Shown here: positions 8,258 to 23,306 of the stretch, piece by piece | How the letters are laid out: each line of letters starts with the position of its first letter | Numbering within the stretch: the first letter of the stretch is position 1 | Position numbers and translations under genes: made by a program | Notes under the pieces: model-generated | Database searches by the model: none | Told to the model about the DNA's origin: nothing | The model's input: only the letters and a program-made list of their open reading frames with translations | Source: an uncultured Candidatus Peregrinibacteria bacterium | GTDB lineage: Bacteria; Patescibacteriota; Gracilibacteria; UBA1369 | Assembly (NCBI GenBank): GCA_937858825.1 | Contig: CALMAI010000018.1 | Coordinates: forward strand, 1 to 46,564 | Length of the DNA: 46,564 bases | Reading direction: 5' to 3'

Positions 8258-11173
8258 TTATGCTGCGGCATGGCATAGTACGCGATATTCGCAAAAACCG
8301 CAATGGAAACCCGGAGTCGGCTTCATGTCCGATGTTTTCATATCTTCCACCACTTCTAACAGTTCTGCCTTTACTTCGGCCAGATCTTTTTCCGTTCTTT
8401 CTGTGGACGCCTTTGAAGCATCTTCCAAATAGTAGAGACTCAATTGAGAGATCGGAATGCGGAAAATCTCTTTGCAGGCCAGTGCGTACAGAGACAACTG
8501 CAGATCTTTCTTTAAATTGATATTCCGCTTGGATGTTCCGGTTTTATAGTCGATTACCTCATATGTTCCATCTTCAAGCTGATCAATACGGTCAATTCGT
8601 CCGCTAAAGACCACGTTTCCCAACTTCAACCGGAATCCACGCTCCAAAAATGCCGGTACTTTAAATCCGGCCTCCTCTTCTTTGGTATAAAAATTCTGCA
8701 AGGTCTCCCAACCCATCTTTTTTCGCGCGGCCTCATGTCCCCGGCTTTCATAACCGGCTCCAATCCAGTGCTCTTCGTAGAGCTCTTTCAAACCATCCAA
8801 CCCTACCTCTTTTCCGCCTTTTCGCTGCTCATAAAAAGCATTCACAGTGTTATGGATGCTGGATCCAAAATTGGCCGCATGCGGTTGAGGAGTCGGAATT
8901 TTAAAATAGTAGCGAAACTTATACTTTAACGGACAGGTCTCAAAAGCCGCCACTTTACTGTAACTCAACTGCCGTACATCAATCTCCGGCACAGTCAGAA
9001 TTTTTTTGATCATAGGAGTTTCAACCTCTTCATGCTTGGTTAAAGAACCATGAACTCGATCCGCTGTCGCCTCTTCAGCATTTTCGGTATGATCGATCTC
9101 CCGGGTCGAAGCACACTCAAGCGCCTCCAGCACAAACGGCGAAACTTTCCATTTCTTCTTCCCTTCATACGCGTCGCTATAACTCAGAAAAAGTCGCTGT
9201 TTTGCCCTGGTACAAGCCACATAAAAAAGTCGTCTTTCTTCATTGATGTGCAAATCGTCGCCCGGCAACTCCTCCATAATCAGCTCTTCTGGAATCGGCA
9301 GAGGATCTTTCCGATTAATCCCCGGAAACCGATGGTTTACCAGTGTTGGCACAAAAACATACCCAAACTCCAACCCCTTGGACCCATGCACACTTAAAAT
9401 AGAAACCGCGTCTCTTTCAATCTCTGTTGTAGACGGAATCGCCCCCAGCGCCTCCTGCAGCGAATCCAGATATTCCAGAAATGCCAAAGCAGGACGTTCC
9501 TGCTGCCCATCGGCCTCAAACTCCTTCACCATCTCCAAAAACTCGGCAATATGTTGAATTTTCTCAGCATTTTCGTCGATCTCTTCTGCCATCAGCCGTC
9601 GCACATACCCAGACAGATCCAAAAACTGCCCAAGTGTGCGGTAAACATCGTGATTTCTGCTAAACTCCAATACCTCCTGACTCAACTTTAGAACCTCTTC
9701 AAAAGGAGACTCTTCCTCCAAACCAGGCAAAGTCTGCTCGTTCTTCTTGATCGATTTCTGAAGATAGTAAAAAAGAGGACTGAAGCCGGCCTTTTTAGCT
9801 CCATCAATCGCTTCCAGAATAGTCCCCATATCAATGCCAAACATAGGAAAACTCATCATTCGAAAGTAAGCAACGTCATCTTGTGGTTTGGCCAAAAATC
9901 GCAGAACCGCAACCAGATCTTTAATCTCCTCAAACCGCAAAAGTCCTTGCGTGTCCCGCACCGTAAAAGGAATTTCCGCATCCTTCATGGCTTCAATAAA
10001 CGGCGCGGCATGCTGGTTTGCCCGAACCAGAATGGCAACATCTTTGTACGATGCTCCATCTGCCACTGCTTTGTTGATCCCCTCAATCACATGTTTTACC
10101 TCTTCTGAATAATGTAAAAAATGATGAACTTCTACCGGTTCACCAGCATCTTCATACCCTTTGGCAATCAGCTTTTTATCGATCTGCGCTTCATGTTCCA
10201 GCCGAAAAGGATTGTTTTTCTGAACCACATCATAAGCAGTATCCAGAATTGTTTGTGTGGACCGATAATTCTCGGTCAAAACCACCTTTTTGGCCTCGGG
10301 AAAACGCTCTTCAAACTGCCGGATATTGCTGAGCGACGCCCCTCGCCACTTATAAATAGCCTGATCATCATCCCCAACCACCACCAGATTCTTGTGTTCA
10401 TTCGCCAACATCATGACCAGTTTATTCTGAGCCAGATTCGTGTCCTGAAACTCATCCACCATAATGTATCGAAACCGTTGCTGCATTTCCTTTAGTACGG
10501 ACGGGCGCTTTTCAAAAAGCCGCAGCGCGTAAAACTGCAAATCTCCAAAATCCAGACAGTTCTGCTCTGCCATCAACCGTTGATACGTCGCGTAGGCCTT
10601 GGCCACCTCCAGCATTTTCTGTCCCTCCTCTTTTTCCACATCGTCAACAGCATCCGCAATCATTTTTTCCGCATGTTCCACATATCTTTCAGGCAAAATA
10701 TCCTCATCCTTCAGGCGGCTGAAATGTCCCAGCAATGTGTGCAAAAATTTATAAGGATTCCCAAGCGGCCGGTAAAAATCCAGTTCAAACGCAAACAAAT
10801 TCTGTTTCAGCATCAACCACTGTTGCGCCGGAGTCAGTAAACTGTAGCCAGGATCGATCCCGATCTCCATGCCACGTTCACGCAAAATCGCGTCACAAAA
10901 CCCATGAAACGTCTTGATCGTAATCTCTTCATAGGAAAGAGGCATCATTTCATCAACCCGGGCCTGCATCTCTTCTGTGGCTTTCTCCGTAAAAGTCAGC
11001 GCCAAAATCTGGGAAGATGGCACTTTCACGTCCAGCATCAAATGCAAAATTCTGGATGTAATAACACGGGTCTTCCCCGTTCCGGCACCGGCAATAATCA
11101 AAAGCGGCCCGTCAGTGTGCTCTGCAGCCTCCCGTTGAGCCCGATTCAAATTTTCCGTCACAGTCATACTCAT
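8258..11173 (-). CDS. UvrD/PcrA-like superfamily 1 helicase fused to a PD-(D/E)XK nuclease with Fe-S cysteines
   Basis: The 971-residue protein has a full UvrD-type helicase followed by a RecB/Cas4-like nuclease. Walker A is AGAGTGKT (28-35); the Walker B/DExx motif is in IMVDEFQDTN; motif III-IV follows as VVGDDDQAIYKWRGA and ENYRST; late motifs are SVHGSKGLEF and RRLFYVACTRAKQ. The C-terminal nuclease has D861 in GRIDRID and D875-x-K877 in VIDYKTG. Cysteines C747, C958, C961 and C967 match the iron-sulfur 'staple' of AddB-type nucleases. This suggests DNA end processing or repair in one polypeptide, functionally like AddAB/RecBCD, although no partner gene is present. The -10 box lies six bases before the ATG, so the mRNA may be leaderless. 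rlmN is co-transcribed downstream. Confidence 0.93.
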   Translation of the reverse strand: MSMTVTENLNRAQREAAEHTDGPLLIIAGAGTGKTRVITSRILHLMLDVKVPSSQILALTFTEKATEEMQARVDEMMPLSYEEITIKTFHGFCDAILRERGMEIGIDPGYSLLTPAQQWLMLKQNLFAFELDFYRPLGNPYKFLHTLLGHFSRLKDEDILPERYVEHAEKMIADAVDDVEKEEGQKMLEVAKAYATYQRLMAEQNCLDFGDLQFYALRLFEKRPSVLKEMQQRFRYIMVDEFQDTNLAQNKLVMMLANEHKNLVVVGDDDQAIYKWRGASLSNIRQFEERFPEAKKVVLTENYRSTQTILDTAYDVVQKNNPFRLEHEAQIDKKLIAKGYEDAGEPVEVHHFLHYSEEVKHVIEGINKAVADGASYKDVAILVRANQHAAPFIEAMKDAEIPFTVRDTQGLLRFEEIKDLVAVLRFLAKPQDDVAYFRMMSFPMFGIDMGTILEAIDGAKKAGFSPLFYYLQKSIKKNEQTLPGLEEESPFEEVLKLSQEVLEFSRNHDVYRTLGQFLDLSGYVRRLMAEEIDENAEKIQHIAEFLEMVKEFEADGQQERPALAFLEYLDSLQEALGAIPSTTEIERDAVSILSVHGSKGLEFGYVFVPTLVNHRFPGINRKDPLPIPEELIMEELPGDDLHINEERRLFYVACTRAKQRLFLSYSDAYEGKKKWKVSPFVLEALECASTREIDHTENAEEATADRVHGSLTKHEEVETPMIKKILTVPEIDVRQLSYSKVAAFETCPLKYKFRYYFKIPTPQPHAANFGSSIHNTVNAFYEQRKGGKEVGLDGLKELYEEHWIGAGYESRGHEAARKKMGWETLQNFYTKEEEAGFKVPAFLERGFRLKLGNVVFSGRIDRIDQLEDGTYEVIDYKTGTSKRNINLKKDLQLSLYALACKEIFRIPISQLSLYYLEDASKASTERTEKDLAEVKAELLEVVEDMKTSDMKPTPGFHCGFCEYRVLCHAAA

Positions 11174-11264: not shown

Positions 11265-14200
11265 ATGTCATTCAAAAAAATCATAGCAAATTTTTCAGCG
11301 GAGCTCTTCAAGCCAGCACGCCTGGTTTTTGACGCAGAAAAGCCAAAAAGTGACGTAGAAAGCGCAGAAAAACCAAAAGAGGCAGGAATTCCCATCAACA
11401 CCGAAGCCAGAGACGTAGCAGCCTCAAAGGAAAAGGAAAGTTATGCCGACTGGGAAAAAAAGATCAAAGAAAAGTACGGTGGATCAATTTACAAATTCAA
11501 AGATCTGGACAAAAACCTAGAAGGAACCAAAAGCGAGGTCTATATCGACGCTCCGGACATGGAGGACGAAAAATACAAAGGAAAGAAGCCTGAAGTAGTG
11601 ATGTATTTTCATGGAAATGGAGGACAAAACTACGGCGAAGGCGAAAACAAAAAAATTCTGGAAGAGGTTGCGCGAAGACGCGCCGCCGGTGAACCGATCA
11701 CCCTGATTATGGCCCAGGACAAAGCCGGACACTGGAAAGATTTCGACAATCCAAAATCGTTTAACGCGATCATTGACCACGCCGAAGAACTGACAGGAAA
11801 GAAGTTTGGATCCATTAATCTTGCTTCTTTTAGCGGTGGATACGGCGGAATCGGAAAACTCCTCCACGGTCTTGAAACCTCCAACGATCCACGGAGCAAA
11901 GAGCTCTACAAAGGAATCAAAAACATCGGATTCATGGACTCTCTCTATGCAACCGAAAAATACGTAGAATCAGTAGCAAACTGGGCCGCCTCTGACGAAA
12001 GCAACAATCTTTCACTTTACTGGACCGATGCAGCCAAAAAAGGAAAAGAGATGCTGGAAGCAAAGCTGGAGAAAAAATTCAGCGCGCTGGATCGAAAAAT
12101 GAAAAACATCGACATTCAGCAGGAACGGTACGGTGGCGGCCACGGCGTTGACCGTAAATTTTTTAGTGAATTCCTGGATCGCGCGCCGGAAATGTTGGAT
12201 GAAGGTGGAGATTATGGACTCAAATTCCGCGAACGCACACCGGAAGCCATGAGCAAGGAACAGCTTATCTCCGCGCTGGAAGAATGTGAAACCCCGGAAC
12301 AACGCGATGAACTGATCCTCAAACAGGTTCTTGCCGGAAACATCCCTGAAGGTTTTAAGAAACCAACTATTTGGGAAACAGAGGTTACCAACAAAGAAGG
12401 AAAAAAGGTAAAAGTGAAAGTTCCACTCTACGGCATGTTAAAACTTGGACCGCCAGGCGACGAAATCATCATCAATGCCAGCGGACAGGGAGCACAGGCC
12501 ATTGCCAAAGCATTGGGAGCACACCTTCCACCCGGCGATTTTTACAACATGCTCTACAAAGACCCAAGTATCCAAAGAGCACCATTCTGGTATGGAGGAG
12601 ACCTGGAAAAGGTTGCCGCAAAATACGCAAAAAGCCACCTTCCATACCACACAGGCGATGGAAAAGTGAGCGGATCTGCTCTACAATCCATGGCATACAC
12701 CGCCGCCGCAAGCGAACGCTACTACGAATGGTGCAAACTGAACGGTGTTGATCCAAACAGTTTCACCCTTGGTCATGGAAAAACAGTCTTCATGCCCGTA
12801 AAAGAGGGGCAACACGGACTCACATTCGGAGGTGGCCTTCACGACGCGCCTATCCAGACAGCCGATGGTGGTCGCAACTGGAAAGTAAGTAATCAACCAG
12901 TTCAGGTAAGCGGAAACGGTGACGTTAACTACACCGCCCACGAACAAAACTGGTGGAGTATGGCCGTCACCAATGAGTTCATGGGTGATCCAGTCATCGA
13001 AATCGATGGGAAAGAACAGAGAATTCCTCTTCAGGACCTCCTCCACAAAGAGGAGTACGCATTCCTTAGGCCAATGTTCTTTGGAAACAAAAAGTACGAA
13101 AAAATTCCAGAGTACAACATTCCCGCCCGACTGAGCAGTGTCCTGAAAGACACAGGCACAGACGTTGAACGGAGCTATAACGGCGTAGAAGTCGTACGAA
13201 ATAAATCCAACATTGAAATAACACCAACATCCAGTGGAATCCCAATCTCTGCCGGTGAAGGCGGAAGCCATTACGGCAGCGGATTTAGTGGTGGTGGTTC
13301 ATTTGGAGGAGGAGGGGAGTACATGCCGGCAAGTTTCTCATCCGGTCCGGATCAACCTCTCGAAAGTCGCGAAGTTCCACGAAAAGGAAAAGTTTTTGCC
13401 ATTGGAGATTCTCTCTCTCACGGATTTGTTCCAGGGTTGAAAGATTTGGATGTCACTCACATTCATCCACAGTCACGACTCAATGAAAAATACCCGTCAA
13501 GCGGGCAACATACAGGAACCATGATCGAAACACTCCGCTACATGCTCAACAACTATGACTGTGAAGGAGCTACACTCCTGATTGTTGGAGGAAGCAACGA
13601 TCTGTTTCTTCGTGACGAAAAAGATCCACTTTCAATCAAGAAAATTACCGACAACCTGACCCAAATCTATAAAATGGCACGAGCAGCCGGCATGAAGGTG
13701 GTAACATCCACACTTCCACCGGTAGCATATTCGCCACAATATTCTGGCAGACATGGAGCTCGCTATGCCAAGGAACATAAAAACCTGGACAGTGCTGAAC
13801 AGTACAACGAAGAGCTCGTTAAGAAATGGCAGGCTCTGAATAAGTGGATTGTCGACCACGAAGGTTCTCCAGAGGGGCCGGACAAGGTCGTTCAGGTTCA
13901 TAAAGAGTTTGAAGATCCAACCACTCCCGGAAAACTTCGCCCGGACCTTTATGGTAAAGGCGACGGTGTTCATCTGGTGAACTACAGTGAAATGTCTCAA
14001 AAATTGCAGGAGGGACTCAAAGAGGTTCTCCCAACCGAACAGGAAATTAAAGACGACGGCTATGAAAAGCTGAATTCCGACCAAATGGCTCAAAACACCA
14101 AATGGCGCCAGGGATTTACGGGAAAACCGGCCAATCACAGACTGGTTGGAGAGAAAGCCATGCAGATTCTTGGCGACTCAAGCGTAAAACTTGGTGATAA

Positions 14201-14327
14201 AGTGGAGTTTGAGATGGATGGGAAAAAGTATGTGGCGCTCAAAGAGTGGCACCCCGGAAACGGACCACACAAAAACGTTCATAAAGGTGTAAGCGTTGTA
14301 GAAAAGCCAGACCAGGACAATGCCTGA
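11265..14327 (+). CDS. Two-domain hydrolase: alpha/beta-hydrolase-like domain plus SGNH/GDSL hydrolase domain
   Basis: No named family fits the whole 1020-residue protein. Residues about 85-310 resemble an alpha/beta hydrolase: oxyanion loop YFHGNGG (114-120), nucleophile elbow ASFSGGYGG (S190), a possible acid D225 in GFMDSLY and His H293 in YGGGHGVD. Residues 320-660 form an unrecognised middle region. A Gly/Ser-rich linker (665-695) leads to an SGNH hydrolase: block I GDSLS (S716), block III GGSND (N778) and block V DGVH (D900, H903). A small C-terminal module (about 930-1020) follows. There is no obvious signal peptide or membrane segment; the N-terminus is basic (MSFKKII). This layout suggests a polysaccharide or lipid deacylase/esterase, but the substrate is unknown. 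It is a single-gene unit, convergent with rpsA. Confidence 0.8.
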   Translation: MSFKKIIANFSAELFKPARLVFDAEKPKSDVESAEKPKEAGIPINTEARDVAASKEKESYADWEKKIKEKYGGSIYKFKDLDKNLEGTKSEVYIDAPDMEDEKYKGKKPEVVMYFHGNGGQNYGEGENKKILEEVARRRAAGEPITLIMAQDKAGHWKDFDNPKSFNAIIDHAEELTGKKFGSINLASFSGGYGGIGKLLHGLETSNDPRSKELYKGIKNIGFMDSLYATEKYVESVANWAASDESNNLSLYWTDAAKKGKEMLEAKLEKKFSALDRKMKNIDIQQERYGGGHGVDRKFFSEFLDRAPEMLDEGGDYGLKFRERTPEAMSKEQLISALEECETPEQRDELILKQVLAGNIPEGFKKPTIWETEVTNKEGKKVKVKVPLYGMLKLGPPGDEIIINASGQGAQAIAKALGAHLPPGDFYNMLYKDPSIQRAPFWYGGDLEKVAAKYAKSHLPYHTGDGKVSGSALQSMAYTAAASERYYEWCKLNGVDPNSFTLGHGKTVFMPVKEGQHGLTFGGGLHDAPIQTADGGRNWKVSNQPVQVSGNGDVNYTAHEQNWWSMAVTNEFMGDPVIEIDGKEQRIPLQDLLHKEEYAFLRPMFFGNKKYEKIPEYNIPARLSSVLKDTGTDVERSYNGVEVVRNKSNIEITPTSSGIPISAGEGGSHYGSGFSGGGSFGGGGEYMPASFSSGPDQPLESREVPRKGKVFAIGDSLSHGFVPGLKDLDVTHIHPQSRLNEKYPSSGQHTGTMIETLRYMLNNYDCEGATLLIVGGSNDLFLRDEKDPLSIKKITDNLTQIYKMARAAGMKVVTSTLPPVAYSPQYSGRHGARYAKEHKNLDSAEQYNEELVKKWQALNKWIVDHEGSPEGPDKVVQVHKEFEDPTTPGKLRPDLYGKGDGVHLVNYSEMSQKLQEGLKEVLPTEQEIKDDGYEKLNSDQMAQNTKWRQGFTGKPANHRLVGEKAMQILGDSSVKLGDKVEFEMDGKKYVALKEWHPGNGPHKNVHKGVSVVEKPDQDNA

Positions 14328-14353: not shown

Positions 14354-15529
14354 TTAGGCTGTCTCTTCCGCGGTCTCTTCTTCGGCTTCTTCAGAAGCTT
14401 CTGCTTCAGCAACGTCGTCTTCATCTTTCTTTTTTACAGATTTTTTCTTCTCTGTAAGAGCCTTGATAGAAAGACCAACACGATGCTCTTCCGGTTCAAC
14501 AGCAATAACCTTTGCTTTCACAACATCTCCAATCTTCAAAACTTCTGCCGGATCAGAAATAGCATCTTCAGAGATTTCTGACACATGAATAAGACCATTA
14601 ATCTCATCGTTCAACTTCACGAATGCTCCAAACGGTGTCATTCGATTTACTTCACCTTCAACAAGAGATCCAATCTTATACTTCTTGGTCGCTTCAAGCC
14701 ATGGATCAGGGATAAGTCGCTTCATAGAGAGCGAAATCTTGTCTCCATCAATACCAATAACCTGTACTTCCACTTGATCCCCAAGTTTTCCGTAGTCAGA
14801 AGGATTCTTAACGTGCCCCCATGCAATTTCAGAAATATGCACAAGACCTTCAAGACCTTCAAAAGCCACGAAAATACCAAACTTCACAATACCGCTAATC
14901 TTACCTTTCACCACAGAACCAACAACAAGATCCTTAAGAGCCTTTCGTCGTTCTTCTTCCATTGCGGCACGCTCAGAAAGAATCAATTTTCCGTTATCTT
15001 TATCAATGTTGATAATCTTCACACCAAACTCAAGACCAACAAGCTTTTGGAGTCGGGCAAGAATTTGGTTTGCATCAGCGTCATTAACACGTGGATAGTG
15101 CATTGGTGCCAATTGTGAAACAGGAATAAATCCCTTAATACCATTAATTTCAAGAAGGAGGCCTCCCTTGTTGGCTTCATTGGTCTTCACTTTCACCACT
15201 TCACCAGTTTCATAAGCATCCAAAAATTTCTTCCAGGTCTTTTCCTGGGTCGCTTTTCGAAGAGAAAGGACAATATAACCATCCTCATTTTCGTCTTCAA
15301 TAACATATGCGGCGATTTCATCACCAGGTTGAGCGTTCTTGAGCGTATCCTCAGAATCTTTCGCCTCCCGTCCGCTAATAATACCGGTGGTAACACCTTC
15401 AATATCCACCAAAATTTTATTTGGTAGAACAGTGATAACCTTTCCTTCAATCAATTGCCCGGGTTTCGGCAACTGAATTTCAGCCATCTTTTCAACAATG
15501 GCATCCATTGGGTGTGCTGCTGTAGCCAT
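14354..15529 (-). CDS. rpsA: 30S ribosomal protein S1
   Basis: S1 binds mRNA on the 30S subunit and helps start translation, especially on messages without Shine-Dalgarno sequences. The 391-residue protein has four S1 (OB-fold) repeats at about 22-92, 108-185, 204-272 and 288-360. Repeats 3 and 4 carry the typical FGIFVAFEGLEGLVHISE and FGAFVKLNDEINGLIHVSE patterns. The protein ends in a Lys patch and a Glu/Ala-rich acidic tail. Four repeats is fewer than the six of E. coli but usual in many other phyla. A strong terminator separates it from clpC, so it has its own promoter. It is convergent with the dual-hydrolase gene. The lack of SD motifs in this window makes S1 particularly relevant. Confidence 0.95.
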   Translation of the reverse strand: MATAAHPMDAIVEKMAEIQLPKPGQLIEGKVITVLPNKILVDIEGVTTGIISGREAKDSEDTLKNAQPGDEIAAYVIEDENEDGYIVLSLRKATQEKTWKKFLDAYETGEVVKVKTNEANKGGLLLEINGIKGFIPVSQLAPMHYPRVNDADANQILARLQKLVGLEFGVKIINIDKDNGKLILSERAAMEEERRKALKDLVVGSVVKGKISGIVKFGIFVAFEGLEGLVHISEIAWGHVKNPSDYGKLGDQVEVQVIGIDGDKISLSMKRLIPDPWLEATKKYKIGSLVEGEVNRMTPFGAFVKLNDEINGLIHVSEISEDAISDPAEVLKIGDVVKAKVIAVEPEEHRVGLSIKALTEKKKSVKKKDEDDVAEAEASEEAEEETAEETA

Positions 15530-21492: not shown

Positions 21493-23271
21493 CTAACCCT
21501 TCCAGCCACTAACTTCTGGCAATTTCTTAAAATCCTCCCACTCTTTTGTCAGTCGGGAAACATGCTCTGTGTGGAATCCATAAAACTTATCAGCGTTTTG
21601 AGCATTCCGAACATACTTCTGAGCATGATCAAAAGCCGCTCGCCGATGCGGTAAATAGATCGGATTTGGATCCTCAAACAGCTCCCGGGCGTAAACAATA
21701 GCCATCCGCGCCAGCTTTACATAAACCAGTGATGCAAGCTGCGCAAACTCTTCGGTCAATTTTGAAACATCCTTCCCTTCAAACCGCTCTTTTTGAATAG
21801 CAAAAAAGGTTTCATGAACAACCTGTTTGGCCGGATTCGAATAAATAGCCATATCCGGCATAATTTTTTGTGGCCGATCAAATCCTTTCATATGATCGTT
21901 GCTGAAAGCATAAGCCCCAAAATCGGGAATAACATGCTCAGAACCAAGGTATCCGGTATAAAGTTCCTGATGGCTCATGTTCAAAAGCCCAGGACCCATA
22001 AGCTCTGTAGCAACCCGTCGAAGTTTATTCAAAGGATCTTTTGGCATTACGCGCTCATAAGCAGCCTTCCGTTCATCTTCCGGCAAGAGCTGGGCGCCAG
22101 CCACAACACGCTCTACAGGTTTACCATCAATAGTCATTGACCCAAGTTCATAATCTTCGCCACCTGGCCAATAACGTTCATTAGTGAAGCTTCCTCCATC
22201 ATAGCCGGCAGCCATATTGATCCCCAAAATAGCAGAATTAACTGCCAGTGATTGCCCATGCTTGCTAAGGAACTTGTCACCGCTTTGATCAAGCAGAGCT
22301 TCATTGGTTCCATAAGTATTGGGAGCGATAGCCGCATTCCCCAAATCAACAAGTGCTGTAACTAATCCACTTTCCTTAAATTGCCCAAGGGCCTTTCGGT
22401 ATTCACTATGCCTCCGGCGCACCATCTGCTGATTCTTTGTGGCAAAAGATGTCTCCATAACCGGACCTCCATGCTCAGCAACCTCTCCCTGAAAACCTTT
22501 ACCTAAATTCCAGGGTTTCATAGGGATCGAAAAAGAGACCTTGGCTCCACGATTTTGAAGCTCCTTCAAAAGAGCTTCAGTATCGGCAATAAGACTGTTA
22601 ATCGGAGTCTGTGACCAAAATAGAGTTGGATCAAAGTTCAAAGTGGCAAAATCAACATTACCACTATAGTTCTTTAGGGCCGCAAGGCAGTCTTTTGGAG
22701 TGTTGCCGCCAACATAGTCAACTTGAGCTCCACGAAAACCTTCAGCAATTTGCTTGCTACTTTTTCCACCAAGAGCCAGGATCTTTTTCCCCTCAACCAT
22801 AAGCTCTGGCTGTTCAATAAGAGAAGGACGGGCAATGGCCACACGCTGGTCTGCTGATTTTCGTTTCCATGCCTCCACGCTCATCGCGTGATTGGATGCA
22901 ATCTCCGCTGAATGTTGCCGCAAATACGCTTCACGCTGCTCTTTTGGAATTCGTCGGTACTCCATCTGGCTCTTAAATGAAAGATGTTTCCACTTTGGCA
23001 GTTTGTCTGGATGAACTGGCGCAGTAGGGTGGTACTTATGTTTGTCATACATCTGTGATTCCCAAACTTCCGGATGCTCCAAAACCTCCTTTGCCTTTGG
23101 ATTGAGTTTGGCAAGTTCAACATCAACAGGAACCCCTTTGGGGCTGTTCTTCATCTTCTCTGGCTCCTGCGCAGGTTGATCCAGGTGATCCTGCTCAAAA
23201 CCCTTTGCGTGATGAAACGCAAATCGTCTTGAGAAAAGCCCTATTTCTGGATTTTTTTGTGGATCAGTCAT
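21493..23271 (-). CDS. Large hypothetical protein with a degenerate SGNH-hydrolase-like centre
   Basis: I chose the ATG at 23271 over a TTG 18 bases upstream: the TTG lies just before a TATAAT box, and the box-to-ATG spacing is six bases as in two other genes here. The 592-residue protein has no signal peptide. The N-terminal 155 residues are polar, His/Lys/Pro-rich and helical. Residues about 160-350 follow the strand-helix order of SGNH hydrolases: KILALGGKSSKQIAEGF where GDS would sit, LNFDPTLF near block III, GAKVSFSIPMKP, and KHGQSLAVNSAI at the position of the final His. The catalytic block I GDS is not present. The C-terminal 240 residues are unrecognised and helical. It may be a binding or structural relative of the hydrolase at 11.3-14.3 kb. 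Function unknown. Confidence 0.7.
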   Translation of the reverse strand: MTDPQKNPEIGLFSRRFAFHHAKGFEQDHLDQPAQEPEKMKNSPKGVPVDVELAKLNPKAKEVLEHPEVWESQMYDKHKYHPTAPVHPDKLPKWKHLSFKSQMEYRRIPKEQREAYLRQHSAEIASNHAMSVEAWKRKSADQRVAIARPSLIEQPELMVEGKKILALGGKSSKQIAEGFRGAQVDYVGGNTPKDCLAALKNYSGNVDFATLNFDPTLFWSQTPINSLIADTEALLKELQNRGAKVSFSIPMKPWNLGKGFQGEVAEHGGPVMETSFATKNQQMVRRRHSEYRKALGQFKESGLVTALVDLGNAAIAPNTYGTNEALLDQSGDKFLSKHGQSLAVNSAILGINMAAGYDGGSFTNERYWPGGEDYELGSMTIDGKPVERVVAGAQLLPEDERKAAYERVMPKDPLNKLRRVATELMGPGLLNMSHQELYTGYLGSEHVIPDFGAYAFSNDHMKGFDRPQKIMPDMAIYSNPAKQVVHETFFAIQKERFEGKDVSKLTEEFAQLASLVYVKLARMAIVYARELFEDPNPIYLPHRRAAFDHAQKYVRNAQNADKFYGFHTEHVSRLTKEWEDFKKLPEVSGWKG

Positions 23272-23277
23272 CCAATT

Positions 23278-23306
23278 ATTATACCACAAAAAAGCCCATT
23301 ATTGAA
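23278..23306 (-). promoter_or_regulatory. Leaderless-type promoter of the 592-residue protein gene
   Basis: TTCAAT (23301-23306), 17 bases, TATAAT (23278-23283) on the minus strand, then six bases to the ATG at 23271. Confidence 0.55.

Follow-up and report, generated by a model that had tools for sequence, protein, structure and literature searches.

CE6 is a family of SGNH-type esterases. Its fusion to a second esterase family, CE1, has been described in the multicatalytic CE6-CE1 enzymes of Bacteroides ovatus and Flavobacterium johnsoniae, which strip xylan of acetyl and feruloyl groups (PMC7110780). Among enzymes that add acyl groups, PatB-type transferases carry Ser or Asn at SGNH block II, where typical hydrolases have Gly (PMC12148441), and in the CPR predator Vampirococcus a secreted phospholipase is thought to target host lipids (PMC8080830). 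Here, we describe P0001, a gene of an uncultured Candidatus Peregrinibacteria bacterium whose product joins two predicted serine-hydrolase folds on one chain. The gene lies in a window of 46,564 nucleotides, by which we mean the whole stretch of DNA that was analyzed, and the source genome was examined as stretches totalling ~347 kb, this window included. A preliminary description of the locus could name no known protein with such a layout, but the fused CE6-CE1 esterases provide a precedent (PMC7110780). The P0001 fusion occurs only in part of a single Peregrinibacteria family. It is a known type of enzyme in a lineage-restricted form, and it adds a lineage-specific case to the multi-esterase enzymes already described. 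The more surprising result is a short motif at the N-terminus of the protein, which recurs on many proteins that are otherwise dissimilar.

Architecture and conservation of P0001

Reading from the N-terminus, P0001 has a candidate tag followed by an alpha/beta hydrolase and a middle domain; a Gly/Ser linker then leads to an SGNH esterase, after which comes a small C-terminal region that is also conserved. The features are as follows:

11265 to 14327, + strand: whole gene P0001, 1020 aa, with an ATG start and the stop included
11304 to 11348, + strand: N-terminal motif LFKPARLVFDAEKPK, residues 14-28, candidate targeting tag
11484 to 12194, + strand: predicted alpha/beta-hydrolase domain, residues 74-310
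11610 to 11624, + strand: HGNGG, residues 116-120, probable oxyanion loop
11832 to 11834, + strand: Ser190, predicted nucleophile in the SFSGG elbow
11937 to 11939, + strand: Asp225, probable catalytic acid
12141 to 12143, + strand: His293 (GHG), probable catalytic base
12207 to 13145, + strand: middle domain, residues 315-627
13146 to 13379, + strand: Gly/Ser-rich linker, residues 628-705, 37% G+S
13380 to 14039, + strand: predicted SGNH hydrolase domain, residues 706-925
13410 to 13412, + strand: Ser716, SGNH block I (GDS)
13503 to 13505, + strand: Gly747, SGNH block II, hydrolase-type
13596 to 13598, + strand: Asn778, SGNH block III (GxND)
13962 to 13973, + strand: Asp900-x-x-His903, SGNH block V (DxxH)
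14097 to 14309, + strand: small conserved C-terminal region, residues ~945-1015, seen by eye in the G010, G009, G004, G008, and G012 proteins

The open reading frame is a real gene under purifying selection. Compared with the ortholog from G001, the sister genome, 173 of 3063 nucleotides differ and protein identity is 99%, with a dN of 0.0075, a dS of 0.28, and a dN/dS of ~0.03 over the whole gene. Resolved by domain between G000 and G001, the ratio is ~0.012 for the alpha/beta domain, 0.009 for the middle domain, and 0.021 for the SGNH domain, and dN in the linker exceeds that of the domains. A contig scan with P0001 returned solely the near-identical MAG contig JAGQLQ010000015.1, also from Candidatus Peregrinibacteria. 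Both flanking genes lie on the opposite strand and, as read from their translations, are helicase-nuclease-like (8258-11173) and S1-domain-like (14354-15529); the helicase-side neighbor stays beside the P0001 orthologs of G010, G011, G006, and G004. A link to defense systems was looked for and none was found.

The catalytic residue numbers given in the preliminary description all agree with the translation, in which S190 lies in ASFSGG, D225 in GFMDS, H293 in GGHGV, S716 in IGDSLS, N778 in GGSND, and D900-x-x-H903 in GDGVH. The same description saw no signal peptide, and this is borne out by the Kyte-Doolittle profile, whose highest 19-residue mean is 0.79 within residues 1-60 and 0.85 over the full length; neither a signal peptide nor a membrane helix is visible in the whole protein by this measure. 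P0001 likewise has no visible membrane anchor and no recognized peptidoglycan-binding domain.

The two hydrolase domains

Neither Pfam nor NCBIfam contains a match to residues 74-310 of P0001, and a profile comparison with the PDB was likewise negative. A structure prediction had been proposed for residues 85-310, and we ran it as a single-sequence AF2 model of residues 74-320 (pTM 0.57; core pLDDT mostly 65-89). With this model, Foldseek reached an E value of 3e-5 and nearly all of its top 50 PDB matches were alpha/beta serine hydrolases, and VIA-align gave Z scores up to 9.7, all of which supports the predicted alpha/beta-hydrolase fold that the preliminary description had assigned. The nucleophile motif is SxSGG, as opposed to the canonical GxSxG, and Ser190 sits in a strand-helix turn of the model (strand 110-116, helix 120-132), aligning in orthologs as well as in far relatives. 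The model places HGNGG after a beta strand and Asp225 after the strand that follows the nucleophile; HGNGG is kept in orthologs, and the Asp225 position is Asp or Glu in relatives, with Glu in two of them. His293 is kept in orthologs and lies where model confidence is low. We regard S190-D225-H293 as a predicted catalytic triad, in which D225 and H293 are the probable acid and base. The alpha/beta relatives form one family (hhalign probability 99).

Many of the top fold matches of the alpha/beta model are feruloyl or acetylxylan esterases. Since the matches also include non-carbohydrate esterases and other activities, the fold leaves the substrate unfixed, and the likeness to CE1 esterases is one of fold only.

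For the C-terminal part, profiles uphold the SGNH fold that had been proposed. Pfam Lipase_GDSL_2 matches P0001 at an E value of 2.7e-4 and its orthologs at values down to 6e-10, and when a profile of six members (A5) was compared with the PDB, solved structures of SGNH enzymes came up, PatB (3e-8) and a DUF459 protein (2e-8) among them. With the Pfam family GDSL, P0001 scores 21.9 bits, under the gathering cut-off of 32.9, and the G009 and G004 proteins score above it (37.1 and 40.2, respectively). All four SGNH blocks were found in P0001: Ser716 and Asn778 are invariant, Gly747 is invariant among full-length relatives, and the DxxH of block V is present, one extra residue separating Asp from His in G011. 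PatB being among the PDB matches, the SGNH domain could in principle work as an acyltransferase, attaching acyl groups to a polymer of the envelope in the manner of PatB or OatA. We consider this highly improbable: full-length relatives keep the block II Gly, where PatB has Ser or Asn, and translations of P0001 and its neighboring genes reveal no MBOAT or AT3 partner domain.

The middle domain

The two hydrolases had been described as flanking an unnamed region of 340 residues together with a Gly/Ser linker. Both elements are present, and their limits are now refined to a domain at ~315-627 and a linker at 628-705. The domain has no match in Pfam, NCBIfam, PHROG, or the PDB, and its single-sequence structure model reached a pLDDT of 38. 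Its relatives share an invariant Lys, Gln, and His (K506, Q547, and H559 in P0001), and an Asp that is near-invariant in the other middle domains corresponds to Ser565 in P0001. The domain was found in all 13 genomes of the Peregrinibacteria family, in few genomes beyond it, in a 485-kb phage record (LR745208.1), and in two IMG/VR contigs whose copies are 39% identical to that of the phage, and in no plasmid searched. Relatives may occur in myxobacteria and planctomycetes as well. In the uncultured phage, the domain forms a standalone protein of 253 aa (L202:5995-6753), and the gene downstream on the same strand is nicotinamidase-like by sequence. Because the N-termini of two carriers, read by eye, show basic residues and then a hydrophobic segment, an apparent membrane anchor, the domain is suggested to work outside of the cytoplasm. 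Fusion and adjacency tie two esterase families to an unnamed domain that is also phage-borne.

Fused and separate arrangements and domain traffic among relatives

A search of other CPR genomes, which the preliminary description had proposed, recovered the same fusion in G001, G010, and G006, so that the full arrangement is now seen in G000 and these three. The G006 fusion is broken by a contig end, and its missing SGNH end, with DGLH, opens another contig. Directly downstream of the G010 fusion gene lies a second alpha/beta-hydrolase-like gene (L016:2-1216, − strand; GHSAG). The remaining relatives have the same parts in other arrangements. In G009, the alpha/beta hydrolase is a separate neighboring gene and the other protein reads middle-SGNH-middle; in G008 and G012, SGNH and alpha/beta genes adjoin on one strand and the middle domain stands alone elsewhere; and in G378, which belongs to a different family of the class, an SGNH gene comes ~18 nt after a middle-domain gene. 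At L203:1971-4942, outside the family but within the class, the middle-domain gene directly precedes an SGNH gene, and a tag ORF (NRFIFAGFEKP) lies just downstream. We also considered whether the SGNH proteins of G008, G012, G002, and G003 have a decayed alpha/beta hydrolase as their N-terminal part and rejected this, as the hhalign probability was 0.08%.

Two genomes bear on whether both sites matter. G011 keeps the middle and SGNH domains, but HGNGG, the Ser elbow, and the whole stretch up to the His have been lost from its alpha/beta part, and G004 has middle and SGNH domains with the alpha/beta domain absent. As G011 retains the SGNH site without the alpha/beta catalytic core, the family does not depend on dual activity. 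It is possible, if rather doubtful, that SGNH is the only working esterase and that the alpha/beta and middle domains are binding or structural modules decaying within the family, a scenario to which Ser565 in the P0001 middle domain would also lend itself, as nearly all relatives have Asp there. However, G000, G001, G010, G006, and the separate G009 gene all preserve HGNGG together with the Ser and the acid of the alpha/beta site, and the alpha/beta dN/dS of ~0.01 between G000 and G001 likewise speaks against decay.

Relatives of both catalytic domains, mostly from other families of the order, are found fused to peptidoglycan enzymes. The SGNH domain is joined to an SLT lytic transglycosylase in L105 (SLT 2e-7) and L104 (6e-6), and more weakly in L022 and L100, and the alpha/beta relative L065 is fused to VanY (1e-8). 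P0001 itself has neither partner. In a further alpha/beta relative, L069, PG_binding_3 is matched weakly (E 0.042, below the cut-off). Three of the four proteins with SLT and SGNH on one chain (L022, L100, L104, and L105) have no visible signal peptide, and that of L104 also carries a T4SS-pilin-type domain. The alpha/beta hydrolases at L063:3937-6120 and L064:3897-6215 have a C-terminal part that may be Cys/His amidase-like (RHWVT), for which no database match was found.

Since relatives of both catalytic domains occur in fusion with SLT or VanY, an envelope-glycan esterase is our best guess for P0001. We would put at about even the chance that it is a multidomain carbohydrate-type esterase with two acyl-cutting sites, whose substrate is most likely an O-acylated cell-envelope glycan. 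Adjacency of alpha/beta and SGNH genes in G008, G012, and G009, the gene pair of G378, the apparent membrane anchors of two middle-domain proteins, and the hydrolase-type Gly747 count in favor of this proposal, and the loss of the alpha/beta core in G011 and its absence from G004 count against it. Also against it are the lack of a visible signal peptide, membrane anchor, or recognized peptidoglycan-binding domain in P0001, the noncanonical SxSGG elbow, the poor model around His293, and the fact that the telling fusions are those of relatives. In an enzyme of this kind, the alpha/beta site (Ser190-Asp225-His293) and the SGNH site (Ser716-Asp900-His903, with Gly747 and Asn778 as the oxyanion hole) would each cut ester-linked acyl groups via an acyl-serine mechanism, and the middle domain and flexible Gly/Ser linker would hold the two esterases together. 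The glycan would be peptidoglycan in the first place, either the cell's own or that of another cell. It is plausible, as the preliminary description suggested, that two acyl groups would be removed from one polymer.

Lipids offer another potential substrate. A lipid-poor CPR cell could employ P0001 as a phospholipase or lysophospholipase on the lipids of another cell, whether to scavenge or to attack. Lipases do occur within both folds, a PHROG match is annotated as a lysophospholipase L1-like esterase, and the Vampirococcus phospholipase is a CPR example (PMC8080830). Nevertheless, in relatives the domains are partnered with peptidoglycan enzymes rather than with lipid modules, and feruloyl and carbohydrate-type esterases make up many of the best fold matches; we judge a lipid substrate unlikely.

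A candidate targeting motif at the N-terminus

P0001 shares an N-terminal stretch (RLVF/RFAF ... GIPIN/GVPVD) with a non-homologous protein of the window:

21493 to 23289, − strand: second tagged protein, 598 aa, with its tag at 23155-23271 (−)

This protein is also present in G001 and G011, and its body is weakly suggested to be a catalytically dead SGNH relative (probability 22%). With a first tag profile, applied to five genomes, strong matches were confined to the groups of P0001 and of this second protein, with weak matches at the N-termini of two giant ORFs. Profile A7, built from 14 N-termini, matched 26 of 431 N-termini of the family's proteins at E <= 5, 12 of them outside the training set; of 2945 internal windows of 70 aa from those proteins, it matched none. 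Profiles A7 and A6 both match at N-termini. By comparison, 20 column-scrambled profiles yielded 0 or 1 matches each at E <= 0.2.

The motif is encountered elsewhere in the class as well, with a match at E <= 0.01 in 35 of 241 genomes. The tag lies near the ORF start at each of the 18 loci that were inspected, almost all of them from outside the family, bearing in mind that many of the sampled loci were picked for their matches and that start codons were guessed. One of them has the identical 10-mer, LFKPARLVFD, in a 1090-aa ORF of another family. The 37 carriers with bodies longer than 65 aa fall into 23 groups that have no detectable similarity beyond the first 95 residues. The consensus reads F-K-[EP]-[KN]-R-[LF]-[VI]-[FY], followed by an E/K/P-rich stretch, with the Arg at median position 18; its alignment was anchored on the Arg-to-aromatic positions, and F and K were not used for aligning. 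Many carriers are giant and most have no obvious signal peptide. Tagged proteins include those at L122:1806-7805 (− strand) and at L178, L179, L180-L184, and L210-L227; the one at L184:1917-6326, of 1470 aa, has a weak protein-kinase match (E 5e-4). A literature search on the motif found nothing, which is weak evidence of absence.

As P0001 has no visible Sec signal, the LFKxxRLVF tag may direct it. We tentatively propose, as a reading with somewhat less than an even chance, that the motif is an undescribed targeting, loading, or retention signal used across the class by proteins without signal peptides, many of them large, and that P0001 would be a cargo reaching the envelope or another cell by a non-Sec route. 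Alternatively, a motif this short could serve for docking or have a role connected with translation. Little is understood of how CPR bacteria bring large enzymes that lack Sec signals to the outside. If the proposal is true, a short N-terminal motif on many non-homologous proteins makes non-Sec export in CPR directly testable, which would outweigh the fusion in importance.

Comparison with known systems

When compared with the Ape1/PatB enzymes (PMC12148441), P0001 is similar in its Ser-Asn-Asp-His site and its profile match to PatB, whereas its block II residue, Gly747, is that of typical hydrolases and not the Ser or Asn of PatB-type enzymes. Furthermore, it has no CBM35 or MBOAT partner and no visible Sec signal. 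The closest parallel in architecture is found among the CE6-CE1 esterases (PMC7110780), in which one chain combines an alpha/beta esterase of CE1 with a member of a second esterase family, CE6, and so has two acyl specificities. These derive from xylan loci in Bacteroidetes and their domain order is the opposite of that in P0001, which is additionally set apart by its middle domain, its lack of an obvious signal peptide, and its lack of a CE1 or CE6 assignment by sequence. Within related Peregrinibacteria, L104, L105, and L065 employ the same two esterase families and are, like P0001, mostly without a visible signal peptide; unlike P0001, which has no recognizable SLT or VanY domain, they have these esterases recombined with peptidoglycan enzymes. 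Lastly, P0001 shares the middle domain and its conserved Lys, Gln, and His with L057, L204, and phage LR745208.1, where, in contrast to P0001, the domain is standalone or apparently membrane-anchored and nearly always retains the Asp that is replaced by Ser565.
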